This document shows positions 53,673 through 62,268 of a DNA stretch of 64,000 nucleotides, one piece after another; the stretch's first letter is position 1; each line of letters begins with the position of its first letter. This DNA comes from Nitrospira lenta (GTDB lineage: Bacteria > Nitrospirota > Nitrospiria > Nitrospirales > Nitrospiraceae). Location of the stretch: the NCBI GenBank assembly GCA_945865525.1, contig CAMBDY010000011.1, positions 1 through 64,000 on the forward strand. The letters run 5' to 3'. Position numbers and translations under genes: made by a program. The notes below the pieces were generated by a model. The model ran no database searches and was not told the DNA's origin. It worked only from the letters and a program-made list of their open reading frames with translations.

Positions 53673-54716
53673 ATGACTTTCTCCATGATTAAACAGATTA
53701 TAGTCGCGGGGCTTATTATAGTGATTGGCTTGACGGGCGTTGGTTTGGCGTGGGCCGATGAGGGGCCGCCGCTTGGCCCCAGGACCATTGTCGTGGCGCT
53801 CGACGGGACAGGAGATTTCCAGTCTCTTCAAGAAGCGGTGGATGCAGCCAGGAAAGGCGACACCGTTTTTGTGAAGGCCGGCCAATATGCTCAGGATGTG
53901 ACCATTCACAGTAAAGAGAGGATTAAGTTCGTCGGGGCCGGCGTCGATCAGGTAACAATCTTGGGGCGCGATATCGTCGTGGGTGCGCTCCATGTGGGGA
54001 AGTGGCCTTATGGGGCGACAGACATTGAAATCAGCGACATGACTATCAATGACCATGGCGGCCATGCGGTCGGTCTGTTCAATGGGCAAGGGTTGGTCTT
54101 GCGCCGGCTTACCATCAACGGGATGTTGTTCAGCCAGCAGGTCCACGATGTGCGGATCGAAGACTGCCGCATCGGCGGGAGCGAAACGACCGGCGTCCAG
54201 TTTGCCGATTCAGAGGCGGTCATGGTCGGGAATGTGATCCATGATAACGACCATGGGGTCTCGATTGCCGGCAAGTCTAACGTGCGGTTGGAGCGGAATG
54301 TCATTACTCGGAGCCTTTTTGAAGCGGTGGTTGTGAGCGGCCATGCCCGAGCCACGATCGTGAGTAATACGCTAGTCAAGAACGGTGGAGGGGTGGCGTT
54401 TCTTGGGCAATCCCAGAGCGACGTTACCGGCAACGTCGTCGGGCTCAACGGAGTAGGCTTTCTAATCGCGCCCTCCAGTCAGACCACCACGTCGTTTAAT
54501 TCGTTCTACAACAGGGATGGAGATTATCTTCGGCCTGGGAACCCAAACCAGCCGGCTCCAGAGCTCAGGGCCCTGTCAGATATTACCGGGGACCCCTCAT
54601 TCATTGACCCAGCACATGACGATTTCCGCCTGCGCCTGGATACGCCGCTTCTCAAGATTGGTCGGTTTCCCTACCTTGGCGCCCTGGCCCCCGCTGCCAG
54701 CGCTGTCAGGAGATAG
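53673..54716 (+). CDS. Secreted right-handed beta-helix protein
   Basis: 347 residues. Signal peptide ends GLAWA (about residue 28). The start TIVVALDGTGDFQSLQEAVDAARKGDTVFVKAGQY is the classic opening of pectin-esterase/NosD-type beta-helices. Irregular repeats with N-ladder positions follow (HVGISIAG-like: NDHGVSIAGKSNVRLERNVI, NTLVKNGGGVAFLGQS). GAGGGG lies 6 bases before the ATG. It opens a plus-strand run with a GlcG/HbpS-like gene and a lipoprotein gene. No catalytic residues are evident. Confidence 0.87.
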   Translation: MTFSMIKQIIVAGLIIVIGLTGVGLAWADEGPPLGPRTIVVALDGTGDFQSLQEAVDAARKGDTVFVKAGQYAQDVTIHSKERIKFVGAGVDQVTILGRDIVVGALHVGKWPYGATDIEISDMTINDHGGHAVGLFNGQGLVLRRLTINGMLFSQQVHDVRIEDCRIGGSETTGVQFADSEAVMVGNVIHDNDHGVSIAGKSNVRLERNVITRSLFEAVVVSGHARATIVSNTLVKNGGGVAFLGQSQSDVTGNVVGLNGVGFLIAPSSQTTTSFNSFYNRDGDYLRPGNPNQPAPELRALSDITGDPSFIDPAHDDFRLRLDTPLLKIGRFPYLGALAPAASAVRR

Positions 54717-54719
54717 ACC

Positions 54720-55268
54720 ATGGCCTACGTTTATTTGCATCATGCGTTTTCTATGACTGTGGCCTGCCGAGTCATGATCGTGGCATCGCTTGTGTTGTTG
54801 CCTGCTGTGGCGTCAGCTACCGATGAATTGCTGAAAGAGTCGGTTTTATCGGCAGGGATGGCTGGCAAGGCGATCCAAGCATCGTTAGAGGCCTGCAGAA
54901 AAGATGGCTATCACGTCAGTGTGTCGGTTGTAGATCAAGCCGGCGTGCTGCGCGCCATGGTCAGAGCCGATGGGGCCGGGCCCCATACGATCGATAGCAG
55001 CAGAAAGAAGGCCTACGCTGCTGCCAGTTTGCACCGTCCGACGACCGAGTTAGCGGAGTTGATTAATAAGGTGCCAACGCTGCAGGCCCTTCGCGAGGTG
55101 AACGATCAGATGTTGATTCTGGGGGGCGGCTTGCCGATCGAGATTGGTGGTGAGGTGGTCGGAGGGATCGGTGTCGGCGGAGCACCCGGGGCGCATCTGG
55201 ACGATGCCTGTGCTCAGGCGGGGCTGGATGCGATTGGCGCTGCCCCGAAAATTCGGACCACCAAGTGA
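54720..55268 (+). CDS. Secreted GlcG/HbpS-family protein
   Basis: 182 residues; an internal ATG at 54753 gives a more compact signal peptide ending PAVASA. The mature part matches the GlcG/HbpS fold: a helix LSAGMAGKAIQASLEACRKDGY, VSVSVVDQAGVLRAMVRADGA, then KKAYAAASL and LILGGGLPIEIGGEVVGGIGVGGA. HbpS binds haem and iron outside the cytoplasm; whether this one does is not shown by sequence. Three bases after the beta-helix gene and overlapping the lipoprotein gene. Confidence 0.88.
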   Translation: MAYVYLHHAFSMTVACRVMIVASLVLLPAVASATDELLKESVLSAGMAGKAIQASLEACRKDGYHVSVSVVDQAGVLRAMVRADGAGPHTIDSSRKKAYAAASLHRPTTELAELINKVPTLQALREVNDQMLILGGGLPIEIGGEVVGGIGVGGAPGAHLDDACAQAGLDAIGAAPKIRTTK

Positions 55269-55723
55269 CCAAGACTTCTTCAGTGAGGGGGCTGGCGAGT
55301 CTCCTCCTAATTATGCTGACTGCCTGCAATAGCGATGTACCGGTACCGGCTTCTGTAGAGTTTTCGGCAGATCAGATTCGGCTGACAATCATCAGACTCG
55401 CCACCAATCCATTTTTGTCTCGGCACGACCTTCATCTTGCACTCGTTGGACCTGGAGGGTGCTCCATCGAGGAGGAGCTGTTTCCCAATACCGGTTATGC
55501 GAGCCGACGGAACCTCTATGTCACGCGAACGGGTTTGCTCTATGTGGTGGGTCAGTTCGATGCCCGCGTTATCGATGCGCAGCATTGCACGATCACGCTG
55601 GCTGAGTTTCGTACTCTTGATCGCTCCGTCACGTTTCTCGGCAGCTTCGATGAAAACGAGGAGAAGCGGTGGACCTATTTCCCTGCCAGTCAGAGGCCAG
55701 AACTCTCCTTTGAGAAACGGTGA
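55265..55723 (+). CDS. Lipoprotein of unknown function
   Basis: 152 residues, GTG start overlapping the previous stop. The leader ends MLTAC, a good lipobox. The mature part is rich in beta-type segments with two cysteines (GGCSIEE and AQHCTITL) that could pair. No family recognised. Co-translated with the GlcG/HbpS gene, which suggests a shared envelope task. Confidence 0.75.
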   Translation: MTKTSSVRGLASLLLIMLTACNSDVPVPASVEFSADQIRLTIIRLATNPFLSRHDLHLALVGPGGCSIEEELFPNTGYASRRNLYVTRTGLLYVVGQFDARVIDAQHCTITLAEFRTLDRSVTFLGSFDENEEKRWTYFPASQRPELSFEKR

Positions 55724-55728
55724 CTCAG

Positions 55729-55944
55729 ATGCATCAGCTCATTATCGGGTTTCATCTGGACGAATATGGGGATTGGGTAGCAGATCTGCACTGTGGTCAT
55801 GGGCAACATGTGCGCCACCAGCCGCCAATGACGAATCGCCCCTGGGTCCTCACAGAGGCAGGTAGGAGGCAACATTTCGGAGAGATCTTGAACTGCAAGA
55901 AGTGCGACGAGGTAGCGGCCCAGAACGTCACGCCCCTCGGCTAG
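55729..55944 (+). CDS. DUF3565-like small protein
   Basis: 71 residues from the ATG at 55729; a GTG at 55720 overlaps the lipoprotein stop and is an alternative. The sequence IIGFHLDEYGDWVADLHCGHGQHVRHQPP, then RPWVLTE and LNCKKCDE, matches DUF3565. Conserved Cys and His residues (CGHGQHVRH, CKKC) suggest metal binding. Function unknown. Confidence 0.85.
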   Translation: MHQLIIGFHLDEYGDWVADLHCGHGQHVRHQPPMTNRPWVLTEAGRRQHFGEILNCKKCDEVAAQNVTPLG

Positions 55945-55962
55945 GGATCCCGACTAACCACT

Positions 55963-56607
55963 TCATCCGTGCCGATCGTTTTTCCAGGGGAAGGCTGTGT
56001 TTGAGTAGCCCCGCACCTCCCAGAAACCTTTCTCGTCTTTTTCCGAAAATGTAATCTCCTTCACCCACTTGGCGCCTTTCCAGGCATAGCGTTTCGGGAC
56101 AATCACCCGCACCGGACCTCCGTGCTCCTTCGTGAGGGGTTTGCCGTTCCATTTGTAGGTCAGGAGCACGTCCTGGTCGTCGCAGGCTTCGATCGGTAAA
56201 TTGGTCGTGTAGTCATCGAACGATTTGAAGAGGACGAACTTGGCTGATGGCAGCGGCTTCACCGTGGCGATGATGTGTTTGAAGCTAACCCCTTCCCATT
56301 CGTTGTCGAACCGGCTCCAGCTCGTGACGCAGTGGAAATCAGAAATATTTTTAAGTTGGGGTTGGGCGAGAAATTCTTCCCATGGCCAGGTGACTGGATT
56401 GGAGACTGTTCCACCGATCACAAGTTGCCAGTCCGAGAGGGGGATGTCCGGCTTAAACCCGAGATCGAGCACAGGCCAGGTTTCAACGAGATGTTGCCCT
56501 GGAGGTAGGCGATCGTCTCCTTCGTAAAACACTTCGCGTTCTTCGCCACCTCGGCGCGCCTTGGCCCATTGTTCCTTGGTTTTGATGAGTCGGTCGTTGT
56601 GGTCCAT
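55963..56607 (-). CDS. Small sulfite-oxidase-fold molybdopterin protein
   Basis: 214 residues from the ATG with GAAGG 6 bases upstream. It matches the oxidoreductase molybdopterin-binding domain: the molybdenum-ligand cysteine in DFHCVTSWSRFDNEWEG, the block LPIEACDDQDVLLTYKWNGKPL and HGGPVRVIVPKRYAWKGAKWV. There is no signal peptide or twin-arginine motif and no C-terminal dimerisation or haem domain, so it is probably cytoplasmic. Substrate unknown. Convergent with DUF3565. Confidence 0.88.
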   Translation of the reverse strand: MDHNDRLIKTKEQWAKARRGGEEREVFYEGDDRLPPGQHLVETWPVLDLGFKPDIPLSDWQLVIGGTVSNPVTWPWEEFLAQPQLKNISDFHCVTSWSRFDNEWEGVSFKHIIATVKPLPSAKFVLFKSFDDYTTNLPIEACDDQDVLLTYKWNGKPLTKEHGGPVRVIVPKRYAWKGAKWVKEITFSEKDEKGFWEVRGYSNTAFPWKNDRHG

Positions 56608-56732
56608 TGTTGCCTTCACTTATTAGGGTATGGGAGTGGTAGCAGTCCTAATACGCTGCCCATTCGACCTGTTAGCTCATCGCCCCGATTGACACCCATG
56701 CGAGGACACCCCATGATATTACACACAGAACC

Positions 56733-57449
56733 ATGAAGAATTCCATGATAACGACTATTCCTGCATACAGGTCAAGCCGTGGTAAGGTCCTGACCGTGGC
56801 GGCCCTTGCCTTCGCGATCGGTGTGTTCTTGTATCTTGATCTCGGACGGTTTCTCTCGCTGGAGTCCTTGCAAGAGCATCGCGATCAGTTGACGACCTTT
56901 ACGAACGCACATTATGTGATTGCGGCGGGACTATTTATCGTGACCTATAGTGCGGTTGTCGGCCTGTCCCTTCCTGGTGCGGCGATCATGACTCTCGTCA
57001 GCGGGTTTCTCTTCGGTAGTCTGTGGGGGACCCTCTTTGCAAACCTAGGCGCCACGACTGGCGCGACCTTGTCTTTTCTGTCCTCGCGCTACCTTCTACA
57101 CGATTGGGTAGAACGAAAATTCGGAGGACTGCTCGGCCCGATCCAAGAGGGATTTTCGAAGAACGCTTTCCATTACTTGATGACTCTTCGCTTGATCCCT
57201 CTGTTTCCTTTCTTTCTCGTCAACATGGTCTCAGGACTCACACGTGTCAGCCTGAGCACCTACGTAACCGCGACGGCTCTTGGTATCATTCCTGGGAGTT
57301 TTGTCTTTGCCTATGCAGGCCGACAGCTCGGATCGATTAATTCGTTGCGCGAGATTGCTTCGTCGAATGTGTTGATGGCGTTCACGTTGCTCGGGCTCCT
57401 GGCACTGGTGCCCGTCCTCTACAAAAATTTCACCGCTAAGCCACTATGA
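56733..57449 (+). CDS. TVP38/TMEM64 family membrane protein
   Basis: 238 residues with about six membrane helices. The SNARE-associated (DedA-like) core is SLPGAAIMTLVSGFLFGSLWGTLFANLGATTGA followed by MTLRLIPLFPFFLVNMVSGLTRVSL. Members may scramble or export lipids. It is directly followed by a MerA-like flavoprotein gene, a pairing found in several phyla. Confidence 0.9.
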   Translation: MKNSMITTIPAYRSSRGKVLTVAALAFAIGVFLYLDLGRFLSLESLQEHRDQLTTFTNAHYVIAAGLFIVTYSAVVGLSLPGAAIMTLVSGFLFGSLWGTLFANLGATTGATLSFLSSRYLLHDWVERKFGGLLGPIQEGFSKNAFHYLMTLRLIPLFPFFLVNMVSGLTRVSLSTYVTATALGIIPGSFVFAYAGRQLGSINSLREIASSNVLMAFTLLGLLALVPVLYKNFTAKPL

Positions 57450-57459
57450 CCATAACTTT

Positions 57460-57487
57460 GTGAAGTGTGAGGCGTGAACGTGAAATG
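57460..57487. repeat. Heptad-repeat array
   Basis: GTGAAGT, GTGAGGC, GTGAACG, TGAAATG: four 7-base units between the TVP38 and flavoprotein genes. Confidence 0.55.
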
Positions 57488-57511
57488 TAAAAGAACATGG
57501 GGATCGCTACG

Positions 57512-59068
57512 ATGAGTCGTCAGGAAAAACCTTTGATGCTCCCGGACGATGAGCACAACCGGATGCTTCTTGGTAACGTCCATCCTGCCACCTGGGTGAA
57601 TCCTGACCCTGCCAACCGCTACAATCTCGTGGTGATTGGGGCTGGACCGGCTGGGCTGATTACGGCAGTCGTAGCGGCAGGCCTCGGGGCGAAGGTCGCC
57701 TTGATCGAGCGGCGTTTAATGGGCGGTGATTGTCTGAACGCTGGCTGCGTACCTTCTAAAGCTCTGATTCGGGCGGCGAAAGCGTGGTCCGATCTCAGGC
57801 GAGCAGAAGAATTCGGAATTCATATACCTCCTGGCGTGACCTATGACTTTGGGGCAGTGATGGCACGGATGCGAAAGCTGCGCGCGAGAATTAGCCACCA
57901 TGATTCCGCCCACCGGTACAAGTCGCTCGGAGTGGATGTCTATATCGGTGAGGCTAGGTTTGCCAATGCAGAGGCGGTGGAGGTTGTAGGCCCAGCCGGC
58001 GACCGGATTGTAAGGTTTGCGAAGGCCGCCATCTGTACTGGGGCGAGGGCTTCCGCTCCGCCTATTCCAGGTCTCCCAGAAGCCGGCTACCTGACGAACG
58101 AAACGGTTTTTTCATTGACCGAGCGTCCATCCCGTTTAGCAGTTATTGGAGCTGGGCCGGTCGGATGCGAATTAGCGCAGGCCTTTGCGCGTTTCGGCAG
58201 CCAGGTCTATCTGGTTGAGCGGCGGCACGGGGTGATGCCAAATGAAGACCGGGACGCAGCGCAGATCATTGAGCAGTCCCTCCTTCGAGACGGTGTCCAG
58301 CTGCTCTGCTGTGGCAGCGATCTCCATGTGGCCAGCACGGAGAGGGGCAAGCGGTTGATGGTCGATTCCCATGGCCAGAGGTATGATGTGATGGTGGATG
58401 AAATCCTCGTCGGCACCGGGCGTACGCCGAATGTGGAGGGGCTTGGGTTGGAGGCGGCTAGGGTCGAATACGATACGACCGGTGTGAGGGTGAATAATCG
58501 ATTACAGACGACGAGTCCTCGTATCTTCGCTGCCGGAGACATTTGCTCCAAGTATAAGTTCACCCATGCGGCTGATGCGATGGCGCAGGTCCTCATCCAG
58601 AATGCCCTCTTCCCTCATCCCTTTGGTTTGGCCTATGCGAATGTGGATTCGTTGATCATGCCTTGGTGTACCTTTACGGAGCCGGAGATTGCCCATGTGG
58701 GTCTGTACCCAAATAATGGGAAGGCTCAGGGTCTGGAGGTGGAAACCTATACGGCCAAGTTGGATGAAGTGGATCGCGCGATCCTCGACGGAGAAGAGTC
58801 GGGGTTTGCGCGTGTACATATTCAGAAAGGCTATGACAGGATATTGGGAGCAACAATCGTGGCAGCCCATGCGGGGGAGATGATCAACGAATTCTCCGTG
58901 CTGATGAAAGCGGGAGCCGGAGCCAAGGTGGTTGCTGGGACGATCCATCCCTATCCGACGCAGGCTGAGGTGAATAAGAAGGCAGTAAACCTCTGGCGAA
59001 AGGCGCATTTTACTCCGCGTACGAAGGCCCTGCTGGTGAAGTTGTTTGCCTGGCTGAGGAGGGGATGA
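57512..59068 (+). CDS. MerA-like pyridine-nucleotide-disulfide oxidoreductase
   Basis: 518 residues from the ATG at 57512; an ATG at 57497 is possible. FAD fold NLVVIGAGPAGLITAVVAAGLGAKVALIERR, redox pair GGDCLNAGCVPSK near residue 75, NAD fold RLAVIGAGPVGCELAQAFARFG and catalytic HPYPTQAE near the end. It lacks the N-terminal metal-binding domain and the C-terminal Cys pair of true mercuric reductase, so its substrate is something else. Follows the TVP38 gene. Confidence 0.9.
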   Translation: MSRQEKPLMLPDDEHNRMLLGNVHPATWVNPDPANRYNLVVIGAGPAGLITAVVAAGLGAKVALIERRLMGGDCLNAGCVPSKALIRAAKAWSDLRRAEEFGIHIPPGVTYDFGAVMARMRKLRARISHHDSAHRYKSLGVDVYIGEARFANAEAVEVVGPAGDRIVRFAKAAICTGARASAPPIPGLPEAGYLTNETVFSLTERPSRLAVIGAGPVGCELAQAFARFGSQVYLVERRHGVMPNEDRDAAQIIEQSLLRDGVQLLCCGSDLHVASTERGKRLMVDSHGQRYDVMVDEILVGTGRTPNVEGLGLEAARVEYDTTGVRVNNRLQTTSPRIFAAGDICSKYKFTHAADAMAQVLIQNALFPHPFGLAYANVDSLIMPWCTFTEPEIAHVGLYPNNGKAQGLEVETYTAKLDEVDRAILDGEESGFARVHIQKGYDRILGATIVAAHAGEMINEFSVLMKAGAGAKVVAGTIHPYPTQAEVNKKAVNLWRKAHFTPRTKALLVKLFAWLRRG

Positions 59069-59928
59069 GAAAGGAACAGGTATCCCAGGGCGCGTGCAAC
59101 GCGTGGCCTCAGACGGCCCTCGTTGAATGGGCGCACGCACGACTGGCCGTCTTGTGGATGTGGGAAGCAAGAGAGGCGTGGTCATCTGTGCTTGTGGTGA
59201 TAGGGTTGCTGATTGCGCCTATGGCTGTGCGGGCGGAGTCGCCATCCGTGATCGAGGTGGGGAAGTTTTCTAGTGGAACGGCGGGGCAGGCGTTATCGTT
59301 GCTGGAGGGCTGGAAACCGCTCACGTTTAAGAAGATCCCCAAACAGACTCATTATGAATTGGTGAAGGACGGAGAGAGCGTTGTAGTCAAAGCCACGAGC
59401 GATGCCTCTGCTTCCGGTCTAACAAAAGAGGTTAGGATCGATCCTAAGGACTATCCAATCATTCGCTGGCGCTGGAGGGTGGAGAACGTCTTGGCAGGGA
59501 GCGATGTGGGCCGAAAAGACGGAGACGACTATCCCGCTAGGCTCTATGTCACCTTTGCCTATGATCCGGAGAAGACTAGTTTCTCTAAGAAGCTGACCTA
59601 TAAGGCGGGACGTGCGCTTTTCGGGGAGATTCCCATTGGGGCGCTCAATTATATCTGGGACAGGAAGGCGTCAATCGGCACGATCGTCGAGAATGCCTAC
59701 ACGAGTTTTGCTCAGATGATCGTGGTGGAGAGCGGACCGCAGAAAATTGGAGTCTGGGTCGAAGAGGAACGGAACATCTATGAGGATTATAAGCGCGCGT
59801 TCAGCGAGGAGCCCCCGATGATCAATGGGGTGGCGATTATGACGGATACGGATAATACCAAGGAGCGGGCCACGGCCTATTACGGCGATATTGTTTTTCT
59901 GAAATCGGTGAAGGAGTCGTCCCAGTGA
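59065..59928 (+). CDS. Secreted DUF3047 protein
   Basis: 287 residues from the ATG that overlaps the previous stop (ATGA). The first 31 residues look unlike coding sequence and a start at 59158 would give a normal signal peptide ending MAVRA; I cannot decide. The mature part has the DUF3047 hallmarks: IRWRWRVENVLAGSDV, DDYPARLYVTFAYD, GALNYIWD and VVESGPQKIGVWVEEERNIYEDYKRAF. Probably periplasmic. Confidence 0.84.
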   Translation: MRKEQVSQGACNAWPQTALVEWAHARLAVLWMWEAREAWSSVLVVIGLLIAPMAVRAESPSVIEVGKFSSGTAGQALSLLEGWKPLTFKKIPKQTHYELVKDGESVVVKATSDASASGLTKEVRIDPKDYPIIRWRWRVENVLAGSDVGRKDGDDYPARLYVTFAYDPEKTSFSKKLTYKAGRALFGEIPIGALNYIWDRKASIGTIVENAYTSFAQMIVVESGPQKIGVWVEEERNIYEDYKRAFSEEPPMINGVAIMTDTDNTKERATAYYGDIVFLKSVKESSQ

Positions 59929-61602: not shown

Positions 61603-62268
61603 TCAGTTCAATGAGCTGATGGAGAGCGACACTTCATTTGGCAGCAAGAGCGTTACGCTCATTTGGTGCGTCGGGTCCGGTTGAATGAGAGCAAACAGCG
61701 GCATGGGCTGAGGGACGCTGCTCGGAGGCCAGGCCAGTAGGACGGGAAAGTCGAGTAACGGAGAAACCGTTGTCAGGCTAGACAGGCGCAGGCGAAAGGC
61801 CATCAAGATGTCGCGCAGCCGTCCGGTTTGGTCTTCTTCGGAAAGAGAGTGGCTCGTGGCAATCCCAGATTCCCAGAGGGGTCTAGTGATTGTAACCGGG
61901 AACGTAATGCCGAGTTGTAAGGCGGTCGGTGTGACATCGATCAAGATTCCGGCCTGAATCGCCGCGGTCCGGTCGAGAAGGTTGAGCGGGACGTTTGTTG
62001 CTCCCGCCACTTCATATCCATCGGCAGATTTTTCTTTCACAGGCTCTTGGAGCTCGAACGCTTGGCGCTGTCCAGTCAGAGTCTCTGCGACTGCTTCGGC
62101 CTGGTCTGGCACCTTGGTCGCTGTCTGCGGCAAGGCCTTCATGATTCCGTCATAGACCGCACGCGCCGATATAGACCATGCATCATTGAAAGGACGGCCT
62201 GCGAAGGCGGCATCGGCCGCCTTCTTTTCGTCGCAGGTCAGAGATTTTGGTGGTGGCGTATTGGTCAT
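61603..62268 (-). CDS. Unknown protein
   Basis: 221 residues, no signal or membrane helix. An N-terminal helical segment (CDEKKAADAAFAGRPFNDAWSISARAVYDGIMKAL) precedes a beta-rich C-terminal part with proline-rich strands (LLAWPPSSVPQPMPLFALIQ). No family recognised. No clear ribosome site, but length and composition support a gene. Divergent from the J-domain gene. Confidence 0.65.
   Translation of the reverse strand: MTNTPPPKSLTCDEKKAADAAFAGRPFNDAWSISARAVYDGIMKALPQTATKVPDQAEAVAETLTGQRQAFELQEPVKEKSADGYEVAGATNVPLNLLDRTAAIQAGILIDVTPTALQLGITFPVTITRPLWESGIATSHSLSEEDQTGRLRDILMAFRLRLSSLTTVSPLLDFPVLLAWPPSSVPQPMPLFALIQPDPTHQMSVTLLLPNEVSLSISSLN

Follow-up and report, generated by a model that had tools for sequence, protein, structure and literature searches.

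Three adjacent genes of Nitrospira lenta, encoding a VTT/TVP38 membrane protein (F), a flavoprotein (G) and a DUF3047 protein (H), are a genuine conserved three-gene module. They close a 6.3 kb block of eight genes, A to H, within a stretch of 64,000 nucleotides (the window) on contig C11 of a 1.80 Mb genome (39 contigs, 99.74% complete as listed). A sequence-only reading had suggested that the entire block forms one periplasmic pathway for redox or metal handling. We reject this for A to H, since distances between the genes in relatives split the block into units. As a 'new pathway cluster' the block is ordinary; the F-G-H module is the interesting part. Within it, the pairing of VTT and oxidoreductase is already known, as fusions. 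In the literature covered, we did not find DUF3047 described as a partner, nor its neighbours of the ArsS type. Our tentative proposal is that the three proteins act in thiol redox and at the envelope, in the service of organoarsenical or related glycoconjugate chemistry.

Linkage and proteins of the F-G-H module

H was sought in 100 relatives, the window genome included, and matched in 97; A, B, C, D, E and G were sought in the same 100. Sixty regions, mostly around the best H match, were mapped with the window proteins. Note that pairwise distance counts leave out the window genome and use strong places only, in 85 of the 97 genomes with an H match (E-value limits of 1e-30 for A, 1e-15 for B, 1e-60 for E and 1e-150 for G). 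Weak B matches (G040, G063, G064, G069, G079), weak H matches, fragments, and second copies of B (G012, G055) and D (G068) were set aside. Counted in this way, 62 of the 80 relatives that have both G and H carry them within 5 kb of each other on the same strand. For relatives with both on one contig, the figure is 62 of 64. Linkage is found in 45/48 genomes of the window's own family (f1), 4/5 of f2, 13/25 of f3 and 0/2 of f4. Furthermore, F and G are next to each other at 49 of 50 loci. Some f3 loci (L051, L052, L054, L056-L058, L060-L063) have a second flavoprotein, about 30% identical, adjoining F-G-H, and several of these have a second VTT gene. Tandem duplication is seen as well (L069, L080): DUF3047 is doubled in G055, and the flavoprotein-DUF3047 pair in G019.

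Across the phylum, 104 of 198 genomes have DUF3047, against 0 of 14 control genomes. Judged by DUF3047, the closest relatives with names, among the matches listed, are Nitrospira and Nitrospirae metagenome-assembled genomes. Loci outside Nitrospirales form two sets. The first holds 39 places, which are not independent, from 36 of 48 non-order Nitrospirota genomes with a match; a fortieth region (L131) was left out as a divergent second copy in a member of the genus. The second holds 30 loci from other phyla, assigned by record title among the best 80 of 572 listed matches. Here, L172 was left out because it is titled Nitrosospira, yet its F, G and H match those of Nitrospira at high identity. 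Query source loci were removed from their own counts, giving totals of 68 or 69, and many flanks stop short of 8 kb. In the two sets, a VTT gene lies within 8 kb of H at 11/39 and 4/30 loci, and a G-type gene at 10/39 and 4/30. Outside Nitrospirales, VTT, G and H stay linked but occur in varying orders (VTT-DUF3047-G in L092; DUF3047-VTT-G in L095). Small open reading frames (ORFs) of 75-79 residues stand directly beside DUF3047 in two Nitrospirota loci of other classes (L098, 10545-10781; L100, 240-464).

F (positions 56733 to 57449, plus strand) is a VTT/TVP38 membrane protein of 238 residues, of the COG0398 DedA type, and scores 84.7 bits against PF09335 (cut-off 33.9). It falls below the cut-off for the undecaprenyl-phosphate transporter UptA (NF052604; 30.3 versus 250). 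G (57497 to 59068, plus strand, 523 residues) is an NAD(P)H-dependent flavoprotein disulphide oxidoreductase. It exceeds the cut-off of NF004991, for oxidoreductases containing flavin adenine dinucleotide (FAD) (PRK06370.1-3; 758.3 versus 620). The redox pair C79 and C84, and Y486, are found in all 102 sequences compared, and H484 in 96. In an alignment with PDB entries, Y486 shares a column with a tyrosine of mercuric reductase (MerA), which we take to be an active-site residue, and with a histidine of dihydrolipoamide dehydrogenase (1ebd) that is presumably catalytic. The hallmarks of MerA are a CxxxxC redox motif, an active-site tyrosine replacing histidine, and a C-terminal pair of cysteines. 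G has the same fold, redox pair and tyrosine column. Conversely, the C-terminal pair is absent from the G family (0/102 sequences) and G is below the TIGR02053 cut-off (366.6 versus 454.45). Hence, we reject G as a mercuric reductase.

H (59158 to 59928, plus strand) is a secreted DUF3047 protein, read here from its likely start, M32 of the longest ORF, which begins at 59065. It scores 264.8 bits against PF11249 (cut-off 27). The model of H, made from 41 sequences, is a jelly roll (pLDDT 89). Its nearest structure is the beta domain of glucuronyl C5-epimerase 6i02 (VIA Z 14.4, 149 residues, root-mean-square deviation 2.6), and it is also near CIA30-type proteins, CBM4 and CBM11 (Z about 11). 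While DUF3047 resembles these carbohydrate-binding jelly rolls in predicted fold, it is only 10-16% identical to them, and a common fold alone shows no function.

F and G are adjacent and have the same two domains as the TVP38 (COG0398 DedA)-FAD oxidoreductase fusions that NCBI names 'bifunctional TVP38/TMEM64 family protein/FAD-dependent oxidoreductase'. The two are fused in L209 and in plasmid records. Fusion of VTT to this oxidoreductase fold is described in passages of PMC10127716. In the window, by contrast, each has its own gene, and DUF3047 joins them as a third partner. Passages of the single paper that we found to name DUF3047 (PMC3597751) treat it as of unknown function. In literature on DUF3047, TVP38/DedA, mercuric reductase, arsenosugar genes and Nitrospira, comprising titles, the starts of abstracts and passages of PMC10127716, PMC3597751 and PMC13188914, we found DUF3047 neither as third partner of a VTT-oxidoreductase pair nor in ArsS-type company.

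Arsenosugar-type neighbours and possible functions

ArsS, TIGR04283 and TIGR04282 are genes that NCBI names arsenosugar biosynthesis. Outside Nitrospirales, ArsS is no more than 8 kb from H at 7/39 and 4/29 loci of the two sets (11/68 together). TIGR04283-type genes are as close at 10/39 and 7/29 (17/68), and TIGR04282-type genes at 7/39 and 6/29 (13/68). Over the same distance, the controls thiI, trxB, coaE, cca, mutS2 and gapdh were each found at 0/69 loci, and dnaJ at 1/69. Neighbours above NCBIfam cut-offs are ArsS in L175 (445 versus 300), TIGR04283 in L175, L202, L189 and L203, and TIGR04282 in L202, L179 and L203. Homologues of F, G or H stand inside clusters of the arsenosugar type (ArsM, ArsS TIGR04167, TIGR04282, TIGR04283) in L202, L209, L105 and L175. 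The longest run, in L202, reads ArsM-ArsS-PHO4-G-VTT-DUF3047-GT-GT, where GT denotes a glycosyltransferase (genes named by tblastn, and the two GTs also by NCBIfam). At L209, a natural VTT-G fusion is beside DUF3047 and both GTs. In a DUF3047 tree of 24 Nitrospirales rows (window included), 31 from other Nitrospirota and 30 others, members linked to ArsS or GT genes are dispersed. One ArsS-linked protein, from a gammaproteobacterium (L169), groups with the window protein in a clade of 17 rows (100/98), although support is low at several inner forks.

ArsS is found in 89 of the 100 relatives, and the window genome has all four genes of the arsenosugar type. The difference is that they lie on contig C4, with F-G-H on C11. 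TIGR04283- and TIGR04282-type GT genes are neighbours on C4 (L222, 6001-7464), and ArsM and ArsS are about 12 kb past this pair. ArsM and the TIGR04282-type gene are identified by tblastn only. After ArsM-ArsS, on the other strand, are arsC-like and ACR3-like genes, named from their ORFs. The six genes (L222, as above, and L212, 7812-11589) span some 18 kb, a candidate island for arsenic methylation and organoarsenicals in a small genome of the Nitrospira type.

From the genes, their order and linkage, the invariant residues and the predicted fold, we infer a direction of electron flow, a substrate, a transport role and a cellular function. G, in the cytoplasm, would pass electrons from NAD(P)H, via FAD and C79/C84, to a dithiol or metalloid-thiolate substrate. 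Delivery would occur at the inner membrane, the site of F. There, the VTT protein may move a lipid or lipid-linked product, and DUF3047, on the periplasmic side, could bind the product once glycosylated. The module would work with organoarsenical sugar chemistry of the ArsM/ArsS/TIGR04283/TIGR04282 type, or with a related glycoconjugate pathway. A narrower version is doubtful. In this, F-G-H would supply the membrane and redox part of a bacterial organoarsenical-sugar (arsenosugar/arsenosugar-lipid) pathway in nitrite-oxidiser relatives, with G keeping methylarsenicals or dithiol carriers reduced, the VTT protein flipping the lipid-linked product, and DUF3047 acting as periplasmic binder. If true, DUF3047 would gain its first function.

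Several observations weigh against a role with arsenic. ArsS is within 8 kb of H in 0/60 Nitrospirales loci, and is absent over this distance from 57 of the 68 DUF3047 loci outside the order. Absence of ArsS tracks absence of H (p 0.006) no better than absence of A (0.003) or B (0.0008). Since these control genes behave alike, co-occurrence of ArsS and H is uninformative and was dropped as evidence. Of 47 genomes with DUF547, 35 have it no more than 10 kb from G or H, which suggests work on lipids or glycans instead of arsenic. VTT-G fusions lie on two plasmids with genes for an ABC transporter and a CDP-alcohol phosphatidyltransferase; in one case, DUF547 and a sterol desaturase are also neighbours. 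A distant DUF3047, about 27% identical, is part of a copper-type island (L231) on a Dinoroseobacter shibae plasmid, and another is beside exopolysaccharide genes. Note that one plasmid VTT-G fusion has TIGR04282/TIGR04283 and methylthioadenosine phosphorylase genes nearby, and that DUF547 is absent from the window genome.

Possibly, then, the module maintains envelope lipids or glycolipids. The VTT protein would flip a phospholipid or carrier lipid, G would reduce a membrane thiol or quinone-type partner, DUF3047 would bind a glycan or lipid, and the arsenosugar links would reflect shared glycosyltransferases only. In the larger genomes of Nitrospirales, H is usually joined by DUF547, a diiron-like gene and a second TIGR04283-like GT, all consistent with such work. 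So are the phosphatidyltransferase, desaturase and ABC genes beside the fusions, the patatin and fatty-acid hydroxylase in L095 and L179, and the CBM-like jelly roll predicted for H. Similarly, passages of PMC10127716 discuss COG0398 DedA proteins as candidate phospholipid flippases. A lipid or glycan role is almost as likely as the arsenic reading, because the plasmid, copper-island and polysaccharide contexts, and the ArsS counts, tell against the latter. However, it leaves unexplained both the MerA-type tyrosine and the presence of ArsS itself in 11/68 loci, compared to 0/69 for controls.

We consider it improbable that F-G-H is a general thiol-stress module for metals or metalloids, where G reduces metal-thiolates or low-molecular-weight disulphides and there is no arsenosugar tie. 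The MerA-like tyrosine and redox pair of G would fit, as would the DUF3047 gene accompanied by glutaredoxin, DsbD and DsbA in the copper island. However, the C-terminal cysteines are missing from all 102 sequences, G is below the MerA model cut-off, and the island DUF3047 has low identity. Genes of that island (L231) are CueR, a P-type ATPase, glutaredoxin, DsbD and a DsbA family member; DUF3047 is also on other plasmids of the Roseobacter group.

A thiol-redox and envelope module, for organoarsenical or related glycoconjugate chemistry, is our preferred, if tentative, reading. The tie of DUF3047 to the VTT-flavoprotein pair and ArsS-type neighbours offers a concrete test in culturable bacteria. 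The linkage also suggests what TVP38-oxidoreductase fusions might do and leads one to ask, for nitrifiers, whether Nitrospira methylates arsenic and synthesises organoarsenicals.

Separate units in the rest of the block

The positions of the ORFs in the sequence-only reading were correct, and Pfam and NCBIfam bear out its family names (beta-helix, HbpS-like, lipoprotein, DUF3565, Oxidored_molyb, VTT, flavoprotein and DUF3047). It spoke of nine genes, though it named eight, and eight are present. Our best explanation, as a whole a tentative one, is that these form a synteny block at the level of the clade, which genome reduction has compacted. Its separate units are B-C; A and D, which are loosely attached; E, which is cytosolic and divergent; and F-G-H.

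B and C are together in 34 of 34 relatives with both, and C is restricted to f1. A and B are near each other in 23/23 cases within the genus, in 3/20 from other f1 genera and in 0/25 from f2 and f3. Outside the family, A, D and E are dispersed, and they stay close to the rest of the block only within f1. Although A, B, D and E are present in f2-f4, none comes as close as 15 kb to G or H there (A-G 0/31, B-G 0/26, D-G 0/25, E-G 0/25). Likewise, within 8 kb of H outside Nitrospirales, A, C and D are found at no locus, B at 2 and E at 1. Of 60 Nitrospirales loci, 20 have the housekeeping gene cca no further than 8 kb from H, and coaE adjoins A in all 8 loci with both mapped. Since coaE and cca are kept about as well as block genes, synteny at the family level weighs little by itself. 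In three f3 genomes, of one genus, A and E are adjacent on the same strand, away from F-G-H (G074:C2:3183148-3185270, G084:C70:61222-63409, G086:C19:32751-34631).

A single co-functioning pathway from A to H, periplasmic and concerned with redox or metals, is thus very improbable: gene order holds in the genus and in part of the family, but A, B, D and E lie apart from G and H in f2-f4, the unrelated coaE and cca flank the block to a comparable degree, a sister genome lacks B though its locus is intact, and E is cytosolic and on the opposite strand. Lack of a conserved neighbourhood had been named as grounds for refutation, and these grounds fail, since the neighbourhood is conserved inside the family. 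But this conservation divides the block, and only F-G-H and B-C persist as modules. The guess of redox or metal handling has partial support for F-G-H alone, from linkage to ArsS, ArsM, TIGR04282 and TIGR04283 elsewhere and from the MerA-like tyrosine of G, and not for the remaining genes.

A (53673 to 54716, plus strand) is a secreted right-handed beta-helix protein of 347 residues, above the cut-offs of PF13229 (70.9 bits) and PF05048 (49 bits). We reject A as NosD, though NosD-type repeats are present, since it scores 38.4 against TIGR04247 (cut-off 300). B (54720 to 55268, plus strand, 182 residues) is secreted, exceeds the PF03928 cut-off (112.6 versus 25 bits) and matches HbpS in the PDB (4bmw/3fpv). 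Hence, it resembles HbpS/GlcG heme-binding proteins, and heme binding is putative. Unlike them, B is paired with a lipoprotein of no known family. This is C (55265 to 55723, plus strand, 152 residues), which has the lipobox LTAC-N, two more conserved cysteines and no Pfam or NCBIfam family. Its predicted model is all-beta (pLDDT 82), with no confident match in the PDB (Foldseek best E 0.1; VIA best Z 6.2). D (55729 to 55944, plus strand) is a DUF3565 protein of about 71 residues from its likely ATG (PF12088, 107 bits); our literature search found no paper on DUF3565. C25, H27, H30, H33, C59 and C62 are invariant in 27 sequences (C-x-H-x2-H-x2-H...CxxC), and are a probable metal site.

E (55963 to 56619, minus strand, 218 residues) is a short protein of the SUOX fold (Oxidored_molyb; PF00174, 136 versus 24 bits). 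C97, which we take to be the molybdenum-ligand cysteine of this fold, is invariant in 35/35 sequences. E is below the equivalog cut-offs for MsrP and sulfite dehydrogenases (NF003767, 74.4 versus 207; TIGR04555, 48.4 versus 420; SorA, 43.6 versus 600; SorT, 36.7 versus 570). The gene had been called truncated-looking. In fact, it is full length: 34 orthologues align over almost all 218 residues, and most of 75 matches cover residues 2-5 to 217-218. E has no visible signal peptide, and would be cytosolic on this basis. Because E is on the minus strand, divergent from F, A to H are not a single operon. A promoter-like site is present between E and F (56689 to 56717, plus strand; TTGACA-17-CATGAT), but a promoter and terminator scan counts no more sites than in shuffled sequences and therefore carries no weight.

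Gene loss, close spacing and flanks

Gaps of 3 bases, or overlaps, had been said to link A, B, C and D, and also G and H. The gap of 3 bases between the A stop (54716) and the B start (54720) is real in the window, but measures 446-459 bases in the 5 other loci with both genes mapped. In relatives, an ORF of 85 residues lies directly after A, between A and B; it is missing from the window. The overlap of 4 bases between B and C stands, and this coupling is kept in 8/8 loci (gaps of -10 to 2). Conversely, overlap of C and D needs the GTG at 55720 as the D start, and homologues start at residue 4, the ATG at 55729. The median C-D gap in 12 relatives' loci is about 1,008 bases, and in many genus members a dehydrogenase-like gene, on the opposite strand, separates the two. 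The tight A-B and C-D spacing results from loss of genes in between. Overlap of G and H is doubtful, since it hinges on an apparently over-extended H start at ATG 59065. Read from the sequence, ATG 59158 begins a better signal peptide. Projected at full window length onto relatives, H overlaps G by near 100 bases.

In the sister genome (G016, 1.7 Mb), B is lost, the small ORF of the 85-residue type is retained and the locus is otherwise intact. The two reduced genomes have eroded the block in different ways. Only B-C and F-G (gaps of -31 to 96 bases, 49/50 loci) look like old couplings. The tight gene spacing of a reduced genome can mimic an operon.

The block is flanked by thiI-trxB-coaE on one side and cca on the other, with a DnaJ-domain gene beyond (names read from ORFs). 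Between cca and the DnaJ-domain gene, a minus-strand gene (61603-62268) is kept in many relatives, and has a sub-threshold match to DUF6573 (25 versus 27 bits).

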